Made by a program: the position numbers and the translations under genes. Source: Gammaproteobacteria bacterium (GTDB lineage Bacteria; Pseudomonadota; Gammaproteobacteria; Ga0077536). From it: a DNA stretch of 64,000 nt. Every line of letters starts with the position of its first letter. Position 1 is the stretch's first letter. The notes beneath the pieces were generated by a model, which saw only the letters and a list, made by a program, of their open reading frames with translations, searched no databases and had not been told where the DNA came from. The stretch lies in NCBI GenBank assembly GCA_021773835.1, contig JAJFJQ010000028.1, positions 372,001 through 436,000 of the forward strand, read 5' to 3'. Positions 17 to 60,206 of the stretch are shown piece after piece.

Positions 17-2533
17 ATGATTAAACTACCGTCACCCGAAGGCCTATCCGCCGCGCTCCCGAAACGTGAATTTATTCTCGCCGGTATCGGTGTGTTGGCG
101 GTCATTTTGGTCGTGTACGGTATTTCTCAGGTCTATCAGAAAATTGATGCCGCCAAGCGCCAGGAGCAATTAAACGCCAATCAGGTCCTGGTTGAGGATC
201 TGGCGCGCGAGTTCGGCGCCACCTTGGAGCCACCGCGGATTAAACTCAAAGCGCTGGCGCAGAAACCATCTATCGTCGCGGCGCTGAGTGCGGATAAAAA
301 AACGCGCGATAAAGTCGCACTTGAGGAGCAATCGGAAATCCCCTTGGCCTTGCTGTTACGGCTATTGCCGCGGGGCGCAGATCACATCGATCCAGATTCG
401 AAACCGCCGTTGACTTTCGCCTCGGTAGACATGCTGCATAGCGCCGCCGGAAGCGACAAAGATGTCAACGTAGAATTGCATTTAAGCGGCACCGAAAACG
501 AGCACGTCGTGATGATCCAGCGAGTGCCATTAAGCGGGCCAGTCGTTGGGTTCTTACATCTCAGCTTGAGTTCCGACGCGGTTAAGGCTGCCGTACTAGA
601 TAATGCCCCGGGTGTTGGAGAAGTTGAAGTTCGCCAACCAGTACCAAAGGCGGCACCGCTAATCATCGCAAAGTCCGGCTCGGCAAGTGGTGACTTTCCG
701 GCGGCCCTCAGCGGGATCCGCGGCACAAAATGGGTCGTTTCCTACCGTACCGGTGACGCCGGCGCAAACACCGGATCAGGCTTTGGCGGAATTGTATCGA
801 TCGTGGGGATACTGGCAGTGCTCGGTGCCGTTATGGGCTTGATCGTGTTCGCCCGCGGCCGCCTTAATCAATCCGTAGCGTCGAGTGCGGTGACCTATCA
901 AGGCGCAATCAAATCCATCCTCGAAGGCGCACACCCTGGCCTTGAGCAGTTACTCCCTGGGATGGCGGGCACCGGCCCGGTTGAATTCGGATCGATGTCT
1001 GAGGGGCTCGAGGGGGACGACATCACAACGTTCAGTAAACCGCAGGCAGAGGCTGGTTCAGAGGACCCCACGGTTCCTCAGACAATTGATATTACTCAAG
1101 ACGGCCCGCCCACTGGGATCGAAGTAGTGGAGGAGCCCGCCATCGACCAAGGCGTCGAAATTGACCCTTCGATATTTCGGAGCTATGACATCCGTGGCGT
1201 GGTTGGTGAGACATTGACGCTCGAAGGGGTGTACGAGATTGGGCGGGCGCTTGGATCAGAGGCGGCGGCCCGCGGACAGCAGAGCATCGTCACAGCTCGC
1301 GATGGGCGAAACTCCAGTCAGGAATTACGCGATGCCCTAATCGAAGGCCTTCGCGACGCCGGGCGCGACGTGCTCGATATCGGCCTAACGCCAACACCAG
1401 TACTGTACTTCGCTACGCATTATCTGGACACCCACAGTGGCGTAATGATCACCGGAAGTCACAATCCACCGGAATACAACGGACTGAAAATTGTACTCGA
1501 CGGTGAAACGCTGTCCGGTGAAGCAATCCAAGCGATTCGTTCGCGGGTGGAAACACAGGACTACACGGTCGGCGAAGGGACGATGCAATCCACCGAAATT
1601 ATTCCCGATTACATCAGGCGAATCAGCGAAGAGATCCCGGTGTCCTTGGGCAACGCTCTCAAAGTGGTGGTCGACTGTGGGAATAGCGTGCCGGGAATAG
1701 CGGCGCCGCATATATTACGCGCGATCGGTCACGACGTGATCGAACTGTTCTGTGAGGTCGACGGAAATTTCCCTAACCATCATCCCGACCCGAGCCAGCC
1801 GGAAAACCTTCGTGATTTGATTCAAATGGTGCAAGACGAAGACGCGGATCTTGGTCTGGCATTCGATGGCGACGGCGATCGACTTGGGGTCGTCGATACG
1901 CAAGGCAATATTATCTGGCCGGATCGGCAAATGATATTGTTCGCCCGCGATGTGTTGTCGCGTAATCCCGGCGCGAAAATCATCTACGACGTGAAGTGTT
2001 CCCGGCTACTGGCCGAGGCGATCAAAGAACACGGTGGCGAGCCGATAATGGCGCAGACGGGCCACTCGTTGATCAAAAGCAAAATGCAGGAAACAGGTGC
2101 GCTATTGGCGGGCGAAATGAGCGGGCATATTTTCTTCAAAGAGCGCTGGTATGGATTCGATGACGCCCTATATTCGGCCGCTCGACTGCTTGAGATCTTG
2201 GTCAATGCGGACATTAGTCCAGACGAAGTTTTTGCCGCCCTACCGGACAGCATCGCGACCCCGGAGCTACGTCTGGATATGCCTGAGGAACGGCATGCAG
2301 AATTCATGCAGCAGGTGCTGGCAGCGGCAAACTTCGAAGACGGCGAGACCACGACAATAGATGGTTTGCGAGTCGATTTTTCTGATAGCTGGGGGCTCAT
2401 CAGGGCGTCTAATACGACCCCGTGTCTGATTTTACGATTCGAGGGAGATGACGAGACCGCACTCGAAAAAATTAAGACACTATTTAGGGAATTGCTGGCA
2501 GCGATCGATGGAAATCTGGATCTCCCATTTTAA
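17..2533 (+). CDS. algC: Phosphomannomutase/phosphoglucomutase AlgC with N-terminal membrane module
   Basis: Interconverts hexose 6- and 1-phosphates for LPS, exopolysaccharide and nucleotide-sugar synthesis. Residues 388-838 form the alpha-D-phosphohexomutase. The phospho-serine is Ser481 in TGSHNPPEYNG, the Mg loop DGDGDR is at 617-622, and a sugar-binding GEMSGH motif follows. The first half is extra: membrane segments at about 20-40 and 257-280 enclose a likely periplasmic domain, and an acidic, Pro-rich linker (about 320-385) leads to the catalytic part. Such long AlgC forms are known in gammaproteobacteria. An in-frame stop at bases 5-7 makes the ATG at 17 the only possible ATG start, so the gene is complete. 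It is followed by argB, as in Pseudomonas. Confidence 0.95.
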   Translation: MIKLPSPEGLSAALPKREFILAGIGVLAVILVVYGISQVYQKIDAAKRQEQLNANQVLVEDLAREFGATLEPPRIKLKALAQKPSIVAALSADKKTRDKVALEEQSEIPLALLLRLLPRGADHIDPDSKPPLTFASVDMLHSAAGSDKDVNVELHLSGTENEHVVMIQRVPLSGPVVGFLHLSLSSDAVKAAVLDNAPGVGEVEVRQPVPKAAPLIIAKSGSASGDFPAALSGIRGTKWVVSYRTGDAGANTGSGFGGIVSIVGILAVLGAVMGLIVFARGRLNQSVASSAVTYQGAIKSILEGAHPGLEQLLPGMAGTGPVEFGSMSEGLEGDDITTFSKPQAEAGSEDPTVPQTIDITQDGPPTGIEVVEEPAIDQGVEIDPSIFRSYDIRGVVGETLTLEGVYEIGRALGSEAAARGQQSIVTARDGRNSSQELRDALIEGLRDAGRDVLDIGLTPTPVLYFATHYLDTHSGVMITGSHNPPEYNGLKIVLDGETLSGEAIQAIRSRVETQDYTVGEGTMQSTEIIPDYIRRISEEIPVSLGNALKVVVDCGNSVPGIAAPHILRAIGHDVIELFCEVDGNFPNHHPDPSQPENLRDLIQMVQDEDADLGLAFDGDGDRLGVVDTQGNIIWPDRQMILFARDVLSRNPGAKIIYDVKCSRLLAEAIKEHGGEPIMAQTGHSLIKSKMQETGALLAGEMSGHIFFKERWYGFDDALYSAARLLEILVNADISPDEVFAALPDSIATPELRLDMPEERHAEFMQQVLAAANFEDGETTTIDGLRVDFSDSWGLIRASNTTPCLILRFEGDDETALEKIKTLFRELLAAIDGNLDLPF

Positions 2534-4104
<1,571 letters not shown>

Positions 4105-4220
4105 GCTCTTGGAATCATGCAGCGCGACCAGCTGCCAACTAGGCGCGGTGCTGCGTTGACGTGTTCGGATGGATTGATGTTCGGTGCCTTAATCCTGATT
4201 GCACGGCAGGTTTTCTCGTA

Positions 4221-4871
4221 CTAGTTCCTGTACCCTTTTAGTTCACGAAACCGTGCGATATCCGCATCGAATTTATTGATCAATTCTCCGCGCTCTTTGT
4301 TTTTGGTTTCAACAAATACCTGATTATCGCTGATCTGCTGGCGCAAGCTCTTAATGTCACCGAGTAGCTTCTCCGGCGGTTCGTTGCCGCGCCGTTCATG
4401 GTCGGCTGCTTCTTGGATAAGCAGTTCGAGACTATGATTCAACTTGTCGGTATGACTTTCGGTTAGCTTAATTTGCGACTCAAGGTGGGTAATTTGGCCA
4501 TCCCGAGCCAAAATCATGTCGTCGTCAGAGCTAAAGGTATCAAGGAGTACTCGATCTTTAGCAGCTTGTTCATGTTCACGCTTCTCGGCTGCGGCCAGCT
4601 CCTTGGCGGCCGCACGTTCTGCCTCCAGTTCCTCGAGTGATTTCGCCCGCCCTTTCGAGTCAAGCTTAACCCCACCGGCACTAATTTTTTCGTGACCTTG
4701 CTGGGCAAATTCGGGAGGTACGGAATTGCCGCATTCCCGCACGCCTTCATTGTTTTTCCAGCATTTTATTTTAGCCTGCGCGGCAGTGCCGACACTGCAC
4801 AGCACGACGAGCAACAAGGCGTTACGGGCGCTATTTCGTGAAAGTAACAATTTCTTTGTCGTCGCGATCAT
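4221..4871 (-). CDS. Secreted coiled-coil protein with DUF4124-like N-terminus
   Basis: A signal peptide (about residues 1-33, ending in AQA) is followed by a short Cys-containing segment (KIKCWKNNEGVRECGNSVPPEF) that resembles the DUF4124 domain. The rest is a long charged helical, coiled-coil region (about 75-216). The product is probably periplasmic and its function is unknown. It lies downstream of pyrE on the same strand, with a 79-base gap. DUF4124-type proteins sit at the same place near pyrE/crc in pseudomonads, so this is likely a conserved neighbour and not an insertion. Confidence 0.75.
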   Translation of the reverse strand: MIATTKKLLLSRNSARNALLLVVLCSVGTAAQAKIKCWKNNEGVRECGNSVPPEFAQQGHEKISAGGVKLDSKGRAKSLEELEAERAAAKELAAAEKREHEQAAKDRVLLDTFSSDDDMILARDGQITHLESQIKLTESHTDKLNHSLELLIQEAADHERRGNEPPEKLLGDIKSLRQQISDNQVFVETKNKERGELINKFDADIARFRELKGYRN

Positions 4872-4950
4872 AACCGGGTCCTAAAGTGATCGATTGCCTA
4901 CCGAAGCGTATGGCGACAATTATAGTAGGAGTCTGTGAATGAAATCTGAA

Positions 4951-5592
4951 TCACCCACCAAATTGTGATCGGTAGCGTGTTATCTCGTTGATTTCGGCCT
5001 CCCAACCGCCCGCATCTTTGAGAAATTCTACGATGTTAACAAGTGTCACAATACTGTAGACGCCGATCCCAAAGCGCTGTCTTACGTCCTCCACGGCCGA
5101 CAGCTTGCCCGAGCCCCGCTCTTGCCGGTCGAGCGAGATCATAACGCCTACCGGTAGCGCATTTTCTCTTTCGATGATCGCCATAGATTCGCCGACCGAG
5201 GTTCCTGCCGAAATCACGTCGTCCACAATGAGGACACGACCTTCAAGCGGCGCACCAAATGTGTCTCCGCCCTCACCATGGTCTTTAGCTTCCTTGCGAT
5301 TGAATACAAAAGGGATATTGAGATCGTGATTGTTAGCGAACGCAATGGAAATAGCGGCGCCGAGCGGGATGCCTTTGTACGCTGGACCGAAAATGAGATC
5401 GAAGTCAATTCCATTAGCCACGATCGCGTGTGCGTAAAACTCTCCAAGTCGCGCAAGTGCGACACCAGAACTGAAAAGCCCGGTGTTAAAAAAATACGGA
5501 CTAAGGCGTCCGGATTTCAGTTTGAATTGACCGAAACGGAGTACGCCGTGGTGTAGCGCAAATTCAATAAAATCTTTTTGGTAGTCACGCAT
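4951..5592 (-). CDS. pyrE: Orotate phosphoribosyltransferase
   Basis: Joins orotate to PRPP to give orotidine monophosphate, the fifth step of UMP synthesis. The PRPP-binding motif VLIVDDVISAGTS is present, together with the FGPAYKGIPL loop and the catalytic flexible loop FNRKEAKDHGEGG. At 213 residues it is the size of the E. coli enzyme. It is divergent from the exonuclease gene, as at the pyrE-crc locus of Pseudomonas. The 152 bases between the two starts must hold both promoters. Confidence 0.96.
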   Translation of the reverse strand: MRDYQKDFIEFALHHGVLRFGQFKLKSGRLSPYFFNTGLFSSGVALARLGEFYAHAIVANGIDFDLIFGPAYKGIPLGAAISIAFANNHDLNIPFVFNRKEAKDHGEGGDTFGAPLEGRVLIVDDVISAGTSVGESMAIIERENALPVGVMISLDRQERGSGKLSAVEDVRQRFGIGVYSIVTLVNIVEFLKDAGGWEAEINEITRYRSQFGG

Positions 5593-56786: not shown

Positions 56787-57197
56787 ATGCCGCGCAAGAC
56801 CGGTGTGCAAGAAAATCGAGGCCATACCTCGACTGATGATTTCATAACACGTACGTATATCCTGCCGATCCTGGCCGATAAAGTCAGGCGCAAAGCGATC
56901 ACCGACGAACACCGCGCCAACCCAATCGGGAAACCCGGCTTGGCGGGTGAGGCCGGGGTTGGACACAGTGAAGACCTTCGCCGCGTACTCGATAAATTCC
57001 GACGTGCGCCGCAGACCGGAAAGTACGTAATGGTCCAGGTTAAGGCCCATGCCGATTATCGGATCGGAATCGCCTCGGGGATCCGCGGCAAGCCTTTAAA
57101 GATGCTGTCGAAATCGTTTGTGTCACAGGAAGAGTGCGAACACGGCATTTTTCTCAAGCGCGTGCAAGACATCATGTCTTTGTATGGCGTGCGTTAA
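56787..57197 (+). CDS. Small subunit homologue of N,N-dimethylformamidase
   Basis: 136 residues with a strong ribosome site (GGGAGGGG). The segment from about 41 to 132 (EHRANPIG, then DLRRVLDKFRRAPQTGKYVMVQ, YRIG, KPLK at 102-105, and EHGIFLKRVQDI) lines up, as I recall it, with the small subunit of Paracoccus dimethylformamidase. Its place 80 bases before the large-subunit gene supports the call. The small subunit stabilises the large one and is needed for activity in known enzymes. Confidence 0.7.
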   Translation: MPRKTGVQENRGHTSTDDFITRTYILPILADKVRRKAITDEHRANPIGKPGLAGEAGVGHSEDLRRVLDKFRRAPQTGKYVMVQVKAHADYRIGIASGIRGKPLKMLSKSFVSQEECEHGIFLKRVQDIMSLYGVR

Positions 57198-57230
57198 GCT
57201 GACTTCTAAATAAAAAAATACGCCCGACTC

Positions 57231-57246
57231 AGTGACGTAAATCACA
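57231..57246 (+). promoter_or_regulatory. CRP/Vfr-like palindrome between the amidase subunit genes
   Basis: AGTGACGTAAATCACA matches the CRP consensus TGTGA-N6-TCACA at nine of ten fixed positions. It lies 31 bases before the large-subunit ATG and within a longer imperfect palindrome (57229-57251). At RNA level it could also form a hairpin. Binding is unproven. Confidence 0.3.
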
Positions 57247-57277
57247 CTGGGTTTGCTCGTGTCACGGGAGAGAATCA

Positions 57278-59635
57278 ATGTTGAGGATCACTGGATATAG
57301 CGATAAATACTCGGTTTGCCCGGGAGATGAAATTCGCTTCTATGTCAATTCGGAAAAGAACGAGGCGTACAACGCCGATATCGTGCGTTTAATCCACGGG
57401 GATACAAACCCGGAAGGTCCTGGCTTCAAAGAAAAGTTGGTACGTGCCGCATGTAATAAACGCTATAAGGGCCGCAATCAAAAAATCCATGGTGGTTCCT
57501 ACATCGTGGTCCCCGCCGACCATCGCATGGACAACGAAAGCTTCACGCTTCAGGCGTTTATTTTTCCGACGACGCCGGATAAAGGCGTGCAAGGTATCGT
57601 AACGAAGTGGCTCGACACTCGCGGCAGCGGTTATGGGTTGTTCATCGACGCCGATGGTTGCCTCGCGTGCTGGATCGGTAACGGCGACGGTCGCATTGTG
57701 AAGGTCTCGAGCGGTAAAAAACTGCTACGCAAAGTGTGGTATCTCGCTGCGGCCAGTTATGACGCGAAGGCGGGGCGCTTACGTCTTTATCAACAACCAG
57801 TCGTGACCTCCGCGAACGGTGGCCTCGGCATGAGTCTGTTGCATCCGGCGTCCGAAACGAACGCAACGGTATCGAAGCCGTGCAAAACTAAACCGGCGAC
57901 GAATAAAGCGCCGTTACTTATTGCGGCTGCAACCAAGGTTGCCGGATCGGGCCGGACAATCTTCGGTGCGCATTACAAAGAGGCGGCAGAGCCGGTTGAA
58001 TTACCGGAACAATGTCTAACCTATAACGGCAAGATCGATCGTCCACGGGTATCCAATCGGTCACTCGGCAAAGACGAGATAGATGCGCTCGCGCGCGGCT
58101 TCAAGGGTTGCGAGGCGAACCTTCGACGCGCGGTGGTCGGCGCTTGGGATTTCCACGAAAACATCACCGACAATATCGCCTCGACCTATGTCATCGATAC
58201 CTCGCCGAATGGACTGAATGGTCACACCATCAATCTTCCAAACCGAGGTATGACCGGCTACAACTGGACCGGTGACGACATCGTCTACCATCACATCGCC
58301 AATGAGTATGGCGCGATTCATTTTCATGACGATGACATCGACGATGCGCGTTGGGATGTCGATTTCAGTTACACAATCCCGAAGAATCTGAAGAGCGGGG
58401 TCTATGCGGCGCGATTGCGCATCGGCGGAAAGGAATCTCCCGAGACCGAGGACTATGTGCCGTTCTTCGTGCGGCCGCCCCGGGGTAAGACCACGGCCGA
58501 TATTGCCTTGATCATCCCAACCAATAGTTACATGGCCTACTCCAATGACAACCTGGCGACAAACTCGGTCGTGGCTCAGTTATTAGCCGGTAAGGTGCCA
58601 TTGATGCAGGCCTCCGATCTGTATCTCAATGAACACCGCGAATATGGCCTGTCGACATATTCCTGCCATTCCGATGGGCACGGGGTTAGCATTTCGTCGC
58701 GCTTGCGGCCGATCTTAAACATGCGACCGAAATATCGACACTGGTTGTCGCCGTCGTTGTGGCAGCTCAACGCGGATCTCCATCTGACCGATTGGTTGGA
58801 AGAGAAAAACTTCAACTTCGATGTGCATACCGATGAGGATCTCGATCGCGAAGGGGTCGATTTGCTGAACCGTTATAAAGTGGTTTTGACCGGTTCGCAC
58901 CCAGAATATTCGTCGGAGAAGATGATCGACGCCTATGAGGCCTATCAACAGCAAGGCGGTCGCTGGTTATACCTCGGTGCCGATGGCTTCTATTGGGCCA
59001 GCCAATATCACCCGGATAACGGCAATATCATTGAGGTACGCAAAGGCGAGGCTGGTACTCGGGCGTGGACCGCGAACCCCGGCGAGTACAACAATGCCTT
59101 CGATGGTAAATACGGCGGCATGTGGCGCGCACGCGGTCGGATCCCGAGCAAGACTTGCGGGTTGACGTTTACCGCCTATGGCTTCGATGTGTCTTCCTAC
59201 TACCAACGCGAGCCGGACTCCTTGTTGCCTGAATGTAAGTGGATGTTCAAAGGCATCAAGGACGACGAGGTCATCGGTGACTTCGGACTTGTTGGCGGCG
59301 GCGCCGCCGGGCTCGAACTCGATCGTTACGACTTGGAGTTCGGTACACCACACAACGCCTATCTGCTAGCGCGTTCCGAGGGCCATACGGACCTGATGTT
59401 GCAGGTGAACGAAGAGATCCATTTCATCGTGCGCGGCTACTATGGCGGCGGTGATGAAAACCCGATGATCCGGGCGGACATGATCTACTACAAGACGCCG
59501 AACGATGGCGCGGTATTCGCCCCGGGATCGCTAGCGTGGTGTGGCAGCTTGTCGCACAACAATTATCGCAACAACGTCTCGAAGCTGATGGAAAACGTGA
59601 TCAAGGGCTTTTTGAAACCCGGTACTCTGCCGTAA
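57278..59635 (+). CDS. N,N-dimethylformamidase large-subunit family protein
   Basis: 785 residues, close to the 762 of Paracoccus DMFase. The N-terminal half is a concanavalin/LamG-like sandwich (about 70-290, with FTLQAFIFPTTP and GLFIDADGCLACWIG). The C-terminal half carries the catalytic domain: PTNSYMAYSND (Tyr421), GLSTYSCHSDG (Tyr461) and GSHPEYSSEKM (Glu543). The Tyr-Tyr-Glu spacing agrees with the iron ligands reported for DMFase (122 residues from first to last). It would hydrolyse a small amide; dimethylformamide itself is only one possibility. Ribosome site GGGAGAG. Confidence 0.85.
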   Translation: MLRITGYSDKYSVCPGDEIRFYVNSEKNEAYNADIVRLIHGDTNPEGPGFKEKLVRAACNKRYKGRNQKIHGGSYIVVPADHRMDNESFTLQAFIFPTTPDKGVQGIVTKWLDTRGSGYGLFIDADGCLACWIGNGDGRIVKVSSGKKLLRKVWYLAAASYDAKAGRLRLYQQPVVTSANGGLGMSLLHPASETNATVSKPCKTKPATNKAPLLIAAATKVAGSGRTIFGAHYKEAAEPVELPEQCLTYNGKIDRPRVSNRSLGKDEIDALARGFKGCEANLRRAVVGAWDFHENITDNIASTYVIDTSPNGLNGHTINLPNRGMTGYNWTGDDIVYHHIANEYGAIHFHDDDIDDARWDVDFSYTIPKNLKSGVYAARLRIGGKESPETEDYVPFFVRPPRGKTTADIALIIPTNSYMAYSNDNLATNSVVAQLLAGKVPLMQASDLYLNEHREYGLSTYSCHSDGHGVSISSRLRPILNMRPKYRHWLSPSLWQLNADLHLTDWLEEKNFNFDVHTDEDLDREGVDLLNRYKVVLTGSHPEYSSEKMIDAYEAYQQQGGRWLYLGADGFYWASQYHPDNGNIIEVRKGEAGTRAWTANPGEYNNAFDGKYGGMWRARGRIPSKTCGLTFTAYGFDVSSYYQREPDSLLPECKWMFKGIKDDEVIGDFGLVGGGAAGLELDRYDLEFGTPHNAYLLARSEGHTDLMLQVNEEIHFIVRGYYGGGDENPMIRADMIYYKTPNDGAVFAPGSLAWCGSLSHNNYRNNVSKLMENVIKGFLKPGTLP

Positions 59636-59648
59636 GCAATCAACGGTA

Positions 59649-59680
59649 CCGAGTGCTTGAGCAGTTGTTCAAGTACTCGG
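59649..59680 (+). terminator. Strong hairpin after the large-subunit gene
   Basis: CCGAGTGCTTGA and TCAAGTACTCGG form a 12-pair stem with one G-T pair and an 8-base loop, 13 bases after the stop codon. No T-run follows, so it is not a classical terminator. It could be a weak terminator or an mRNA end-stabilising or processing site separating the two amidase genes from the third. Confidence 0.4.
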
Positions 59681-59708
59681 GCGTTCGTTAATCGATCTCA
59701 TAGCCCTA

Positions 59709-60206
59709 ATGAATACCCGCGATAAATCCCGCAGTTCCCGCATGCCACTAACCGGTGCACCGCCCGGGAAACATCAGATGCCAACCAGCGCAGAGGCGAT
59801 GTCGGCAATGGAAGGCCGCTTGCTGGGTGGCTTGGATCTGGAAAAGTTGAGCGACTTGGCCGAAGTCTTATTCGCCTTGAACAACTACCGGATCGGTCCG
59901 ATCCCGGGATTCTACGTTGCCATCGAAGTGACCCCCGGAATGGAATGGTGTGTGGGTCAACTCTGTGCGGACCGCGCCAAACCGCTTAAGGTATTCGATA
60001 AACGGATCTACAAAAAACCTGAAACCGCGCAACGTGCGGCCGAGCGCATGCGGGCGAAGGATTTAGACGCAATGGCTGCCGCAACGACGACAAGAAAGGT
60101 CGTGAAAAAAAAGGCGGCCAAGAAAACGCTCGCTAAGAAGCAAGCGAGTACGACACGAGCTGCGGCAAAGAAGAAAAAGGCGAAGCGGAATTCGACAACT
60201 TTTTAA
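59709..60206 (+). CDS. Small-subunit-like protein with lysine/alanine-rich tail
   Basis: 165 residues. The core (about 44-120: DLAEVLFAL, GFYVAIEV, WCVG, KPLKVFDK at 91-98) resembles the small amidase subunit encoded at 56787, including the shared KPLK and the same order of strands and helices. The tail (121-165) is Lys/Ala/Thr-rich with 13 lysines between 130 and 159, like histone H1-type tails. It could be a third subunit with an RNA/DNA- or membrane-binding tail. No good ribosome site precedes the ATG at 59709; later ATGs in frame are possible. Confidence 0.6.
   Translation: MNTRDKSRSSRMPLTGAPPGKHQMPTSAEAMSAMEGRLLGGLDLEKLSDLAEVLFALNNYRIGPIPGFYVAIEVTPGMEWCVGQLCADRAKPLKVFDKRIYKKPETAQRAAERMRAKDLDAMAAATTTRKVVKKKAAKKTLAKKQASTTRAAAKKKKAKRNSTTF

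Follow-up and report, generated by a model that had tools for sequence, protein, structure and literature searches.

A third gene related to the small subunit accompanies one clade of dimethylformamidase-type large subunits

The locus described here lies in a 64,000-nucleotide stretch of gammaproteobacterial DNA, called the window below (assembly GCA_021773835.1, contig JAJFJQ010000028.1, positions 372,001-436,000 of the forward strand), and all positions are counted within this window. The locus consists of three genes, which are s1, encoding a small subunit of the dimethylformamidase (DMFase) type, L, encoding a large subunit of the same type, and s3, a third gene that follows L (Table 1). 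Their open reading frames were found exactly where an earlier note, made from the DNA letters alone, had placed them. The sequence data suggest that the locus probably encodes a DMFase-type mononuclear-iron amidohydrolase, which belongs to a distinct three-gene branch of this family.

Table 1. Features of the three-gene locus (residue counts are from the alignment of 81 large subunits)
Feature	Position	Strand	Details
s1	56787..57197	+	DMFase-type canonical small subunit, 136 amino acids
L	57278..59635	+	DMFase-type large subunit, 785 amino acids; LamG/pentraxin domain and PF20254 catalytic domain
L residues 230-245	57965..58012	+	pentraxin-domain stretch with 13-residue insertion, candidate s3 contact site; from the alignment of 81 large subunits
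L Tyr421	58538..58540	+	predicted iron ligand (Y399 of Paracoccus DMFase); Y in 81/81
L Tyr461	58658..58660	+	predicted iron ligand (Y440); Y in 81/81
L His541	58898..58900	+	counterpart of the essential catalytic His H519; H in 81/81
L Glu543	58904..58906	+	predicted iron ligand (E521); E in 81/81
L Asp569	58982..58984	+	in place of the oxyanion residue N547; D in 7/43 inside the s3 clade and 2/38 outside
L Glu680	59315..59317	+	counterpart of the proposed catalytic base E657; E in 79/81, gap in 2
s3	59709..60206	+	third gene, small-subunit paralogue, 165 amino acids
s3 conserved core, residues 48-122	59850..60074	+	helix, three strands, helix in the predicted s3 and s1 models
s3 lysine-rich C-terminal tail, residues 123-165	60075..60203	+	13 K, 3 R, no acidic residue

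The large subunit was similar over its length to the large chain of the Paracoccus DMFase (6lvb_A; phmmer E 2.9e-190), and it contained the catalytic domain PF20254 (308 bits versus a cut-off of 27) and a Laminin_G_3 domain (45.7 bits, above cut-off). In the Paracoccus enzyme, which hydrolyzes resistant amide bonds, the iron is bound by Y399, Y440 and E521, residues H519 and E657 are essential, and N547 is the oxyanion residue, the N547A mutant being inactive (PMC7686228). The earlier note had proposed that Tyr421, Tyr461 and Glu543 of L form the corresponding iron site, and these residues indeed aligned to Y399, Y440 and E521. The conservation of the site was assessed in an alignment of 81 large subunits, which comprised 43 members of the clade associated with s3 (the s3 clade, described below) and 38 sequences outside it; the iron ligands were identical in the two groups. 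At the position of N547 an asparagine was present in 72 of the 81 sequences, and an aspartate in nine, which were L of the window and eight others. Because 36 of the 43 clade members keep the asparagine, we read Asp569 as a variation inside the family, and it adds doubt about the activity and the substrate of the window L in particular.

The small subunit s1 matched the small chain of the same structure, 6lvb_B, both as a single sequence (phmmer E 8.6e-6) and as a family profile (E 5.4e-11). Its predicted model, with a predicted local distance difference test score (pLDDT) of 81, was matched to 6lvb_B by Foldseek (E 1.8e-6) and by VIA (Z 15.1 across 116 residues), and it contained two N-terminal helices, at residues 15-30 and 32-44. 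Both the sequence comparison and the model indicate that s1 is a canonical DMFase-type small subunit.

The relationship of s3 to known proteins was less apparent. No match above cut-off was obtained in Pfam, NCBIfam or PHROGs (PADLOC was not searched), and a search of the PDB with the single sequence returned only rows at E 0.43 and 0.98. The earlier note had pointed to a KPLK motif and a general strand and helix order common to s1 and s3; the motif is present in both translations, and the order agrees in the two predicted models. The local alignment of s1 and s3 had a score of 68, compared with a mean of 28.1 (standard deviation 4.7) for shuffled sequences, and because none of 1000 shuffles reached this score the similarity exceeds chance. 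The comparison of the two families as hidden Markov models, on which the earlier note had made the relationship depend, showed that they are similar: the profile–profile probability was 93.9% for small families (11 and 9 sequences) and 96.2% for larger ones (hhalign, E 2.6e-9, 61 columns), while a control against the reversed s1 family gave 1.2%. When 36 genomes of the bacterial family of the window were searched with the s3 profile, 14 weak matches (E 8.6e-6 to 8.3e-4) were found beyond the s3 genes, of which 12 were located on s1 genes, one was a 33-amino-acid scrap, and one was at a locus that was not fetched. In a tree built from 65 core columns, 45 s3 proteins were grouped together (support 0.994), and 73 s1 proteins were placed apart from them (support 0.738). 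Hence, as judged by these comparisons, s3 is an old, remote paralogue of s1.

The predicted fold of s3 was also compared with known structures. Among 994 chains realigned by VIA the top match of the s3 model was 6lvb_B (Z 5.7, root-mean-square deviation 2.4, 58 residues), and this match places residues 57-122 of the model on residues 73-130 of 6lvb_B, which is the same stretch as in the profile alignment. Before the core helix the s3 model contained only one helix, at residues 33-40, and its confidence was low in residues 1-30 (the first ~32); as modeled, s3 seems to be devoid of the N-terminal helices found in s1.

The distribution of s3 was closely linked to one group of large subunits. The 81 large subunits were open reading frames longer than 500 amino acids, gathered partly via s3 matches, and the presence of s3 next to 40 of them is not a frequency; the 46 s3 open reading frames that were collected include near relatives. 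In the large-subunit tree (81 tips) all 40 L with s3 were located inside one clade of 43 (support 0.999), while the three clade members without s3 have 109, 0 and 2 bases of sequence after L, where their contigs end. Outside this clade s3 followed L in none of 38 cases, at least 700 downstream bases being present in 36 of them; these L include the true DMFase of pAMI2, a pAMI5 relative and a haloarchaeal relative. The third gene thus followed clade L in every uncut locus examined, which agrees with the expectation of the earlier note that it should adjoin L in relatives. Already among the first eight loci seven had s3 directly after L, one of these s3 copies being partial where the contig ends, while the eighth stopped inside L; two loci, L008 and L010, are from the same assembly and apparently make up a single gene set between them. 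In 35 of 45 loci, to which the window does not belong, a possible s3 start codon shares the 4-base sequence xTGA with the stop codon of L.

The same linkage was observed among the 36 genomes of the window's family, where L relatives were present in 34 and s3 in 24, often as two types. The complete sets comprised two types of L (16 and 20 sets), each with its own type of s3, and in all 36 sets the nearest neighbor belonged to the same type. The distances between s3 proteins correlated with those between L proteins (0.93), as did those between s1 and L (0.97). In a search of these genomes from the side of L, every full-query match of at least 56% identity had s3, with the exception of G686:C19, which is at a contig end, while G683:C27 and other partial matches stop before the place of s3. 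Three further matches of 56% identity, which covered only residues 249-783 (G685:C23, G686:C2 and G687:C3), had no s3, and they were located outside the clade in the tree.

The clade is also marked in L itself. In the region of residues 230-245 all 16 alignment positions were filled in 42 of the 43 clade members, the exception being L059, a partial open reading frame that starts past this region, while only three of the 16 positions were filled in each of the 38 other L. Hence, the 13-residue insertion delimits the same clade as the presence of s3. A second short insertion, at about residues 386-390, was full in all 43 clade members, but it was less clean as a marker, with four of its five positions filled also in 16 of the 38 sequences outside.

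The clade is further represented on plasmids. Relatives of L were present in 78 plasmid records, and a search of plasmids with a single probe, the s3 protein of strain DMFA1, gave two matches, which were the two records whose L most resembles that of the window. Both are plasmids of Aminobacter niigataensis, one being pcAMD1 of the metformin degrader MD1 and the other p1 of DMFA1, and on the latter s3 is annotated as a hypothetical protein directly after the DMFase gene; in DMFA1 a branched-chain-type ATP-binding cassette (ABC) importer is located after these genes and flotillin before them. The main text of the paper on the metformin degrader names pcAMD1, and the terms DMF and dimethylformamide are absent from it. 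In a wider draw of 398 genomes of the phylum PF20254 was found in 28, while an s3-profile match was obtained in the window's own genome only, with at most 10 candidates scored per genome. A draw of 274 genomes of the class gave five s3-profile matches, three strong and two weak, and the weak ones (L045 and L055) are located on small-subunit genes.

The earlier note had seen the lysine-rich tail as the distinctive trait of s3. The 13 lysines that it counted between residues 130 and 159 are present, and they are all the lysines of the last 45 residues. However, a tail of this kind was found in only two of the 46 s3 open reading frames, that of the window and that of one species of the same genus, and since it is so restricted it was dropped as the key feature of s3. 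The tail of the related species contains 19 lysines or arginines and four acidic residues. The two tailed proteins are identical at 18 of 43 tail residues and at 97 of 122 core residues, and base changes at the three codon positions numbered 15/16/22 in the tail versus 17/12/67, mostly third positions, in the core, which suggests that the composition of the tail is maintained while its individual sites are not. A different extension, of 25 residues with four lysines or arginines, is present in one s3 of Aminobacter (L013). Because the tail is confined to these two sequences of one genus, the function of s3 across the clade should be independent of it. By this sequence evidence the tail is a genus-level decoration, and a role within that genus is conceivable. 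Two database rows arose from this end of the protein: a valine-tRNA ligase row of NCBIfam (E 0.015) fell on the lysine-rich end and was taken as compositional, and coiled-coil rows in VIA were traced to a predicted long helix at residues 104-162, which contains the tail.

In the solved DMFase the small subunit stabilizes the large subunit and helps to form the way to the active site, and its N-terminal helix wedges between two large subunits (PMC7686228). By analogy with this enzyme, L would bind Fe(III) via two tyrosines and a glutamate and hydrolyze an amide, while s1 would stabilize L and border the active-site entry. We consider it fairly probable that s3 is a permanent third (gamma) subunit of such an enzyme. 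We infer a stable complex, in which s3, a relative of s1 reduced in length but with the helix–three-strand–helix core retained, would dock on the same L; part of the contact would be made by the pentraxin-domain insertion specific to this clade. The s1–L–s3 heterotrimer would form in this way, and would then dimerize.

It is possible, though rather unlikely, that s3 is instead a maturation chaperone, which would hold L during iron loading and then be exchanged for s1. Such proteins are described for cobalt-type nitrile hydratase, where the activators NhlE, NhhG and P14K are beta-subunit-like and the alpha subunit is exchanged (passages of PMC3511329 and PMC7193024). The published marks of these activators are in part shared by s3, which is located downstream of L, is only 118-119 amino acids long in its short members, is weakly similar to s1, and, when a metal motif was sought, had no cysteine or histidine column above 30 of 46 sequences. 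The tail of the window s3 also recalls the positively charged flexible C terminus ascribed to P14K in the passages of PMC7193024, but a charged tail is present in only 2/46 s3. On the other hand, the two groups of L do not differ in their iron ligands, and a two-gene DMFase carrying these ligands acquires its iron in the absence of s3, which suggests that nothing about the site demands special loading. A lasting contact would explain the clade-specific insertion of L no less well. The more specific proposal, that s3 is a subunit-derived metallochaperone which aids iron loading of the Tyr-Tyr-Glu site before s1 takes its place, appears slightly more doubtful still; if true, it would mean that subunit-swapping maturation, described for cobalt nitrile hydratase, arose a second time, in another amide-related metalloenzyme. 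We prefer the third-subunit reading to a chaperone for two reasons: a helper of this kind is unnecessary for the two-gene enzyme, which has identical ligands, and L itself has an insertion that goes together with s3.

Two further explanations were considered. The idea that s3 is a tether, which would anchor the enzyme to nucleic acid or membrane via its basic tail, is improbable. It could draw on the 13 lysines and three arginines without any acidic residue among the 43 tail residues, on the fusion of a small-subunit domain to a membrane permease in other lineages, which means that tethering via a small subunit may occur in this enzyme family, and on the helix–three-strand–helix order of the s1 and s3 cores, which resembles that of double-stranded RNA-binding domains, although only weak VIA rows were obtained for these (Z 2-3, about 2.1 for s3). 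However, the tail drifts by site within its single genus and includes four acidic residues in the related species, and no nucleic-acid binding was reported for the solved enzyme, whose small subunit has a related core (PMC7686228). Of the interpretation in the earlier note, the DMFase-like locus, the two homologous small proteins and, conditionally, the mixed-subunit enzyme are upheld, while the lysine tail as the explanation of s3 is not, since it occurs in 2/46 open reading frames and its sites drift. That s3 has a separate target and has only its operon in common with the enzyme is very improbable; s3 matched no annotated family above cut-off, but its homology to s1, its strict association with a single L clade, which holds across genera and plasmids alike, and the cognate pairing of s3 and L in tandem loci all speak against this.

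Several points weigh against s3 being a third subunit. Activity of the two-gene DMFase, including the enzyme produced in E. coli, does not require s3 (PMC7686228), and therefore a third subunit would be dispensable for the chemistry. A dedicated chaperone would account for linkage and co-variation just as well; the present evidence cannot separate the chaperone from the subunit, both of which predict them, and part of the co-variation is due to common descent alone. In the window s3 starts 73 bases past L, without overlap. The s3 model is of middling quality (pLDDT 73, predicted template modeling score 0.51), and the low confidence of its N terminus makes the loss of helices not firm. The VIA score of the s3 model with 6lvb_B is under the safe level of the tool, the next row being an unrelated coiled coil with Z 4.7, and the same small subunit in 6lvv_B and 6lvd_B scored only Z 3.7 and 2.4. 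For the s3 model Foldseek reported nothing at E 0.001, its best row having E 0.09, and in a sequence search of the PDB the s3 profile hit only 3lq9, at E 1.1, and none of the DMFase chains. Hence, the predicted fold of s3 is support for its kinship with the small subunit, not proof.

The comparison with known enzymes helps to place this locus. The Paracoccus DMFase (DmfA1-DmfA2; 6lvb; PMC7686228) shares with it the large-subunit fold, the iron ligands, the essential histidine and glutamate, and the small subunit, but it has two genes only, as has pAMI2, and no s3; the large subunit of pAMI2 also differs from the window L in the absence of the 13-residue insertion, and N547 of the Paracoccus enzyme is replaced by D569 in the window. 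The acetamiprid amidase AceAB of Pigmentiphaga is another two-subunit DMFase relative, with alpha and beta subunits, which is likened to the window system by its description in the passages of PMC11573777, not by sequence. According to the same passages AceAB does not act on DMF, which shows that a relative of DMFase need not use this substrate. The large chain of N-acetyl-(R)-beta-phenylalanine acylase (8huy) is homologous to the window L (E 1.5e-126), while no chain of 8huy matched s1 in the sequence search. A three-subunit nitrile hydratase with two beta subunits is described for Streptomyces canus in the passages of PMC11573777, and this enzyme, by analogy, is a precedent matching the third-subunit reading. 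Both this enzyme and the nitrile hydratase activators resemble s3, as far as these passages describe them, in that an extra small gene akin to a structural subunit is located beside the enzyme genes; nitrile hydratase is, however, a different enzyme with a different metal, and the likeness is drawn as an analogy.

In the literature passages considered, DMFase-type enzymes are described with two subunits. No mention of a third DMFase gene was found in the literature searched, which was mostly outside subscription journals and in which PMC7686228 and passages of PMC10308929, PMC9699525, PMC8235418, PMC4543880, PMC11573777, PMC11381386, PMC3511329 and PMC7193024 were considered. The strict presence of a third gene in this L clade, as seen in the sequences, points to an undescribed three-part form of the enzyme. 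If s3 is a constant part of the clade's enzyme, both annotation and expression would change, and two-gene constructs may be incomplete. This would be relevant to a gammaproteobacterial family and to Aminobacter plasmids, including that of the metformin degrader MD1. The enzymes with and without s3, and with and without the L insertion, also offer a natural comparison of the role of the small subunit.

Other DMFase-like genes were also observed. The window's own genome (G000) contains five DMFase-like large-subunit genes, with and without small subunits or s3, and up to seven large-subunit matches, some of them pieces, were found in the relative G672. In L009, at 1633-5492, two DMFase sets flank a PhyH dioxygenase and two glutamine-synthetase-like genes, an arrangement that hints at utilization of the amine or ammonia set free.

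The small-subunit domain was also found in fused forms. At three loci (L054:2389-4041, L100:2278-3936 and L120:3900-5501) it is fused to the C terminus of an ABC importer permease of the branched-chain type (PF02653); a large-subunit gene follows immediately, and import and hydrolysis may be physically coupled there. The first of these belongs to the window's own genome, outside the window (C21, about 87.4-89.0 kb), and its residues 434-548 matched 6lvb_B with E 9.9e-10. Two other long open reading frames, L108:3909-5399 (497 amino acids) and L116:375-1553 (393 amino acids), end in a small-subunit domain, while the remainder of each had no Pfam match at E 0.01. In L118:2009-4828 the small and the large subunit are present in one open frame of 940 amino acids, with the small-subunit domain at residues 78-160 and PF20254 at residues 480-910.

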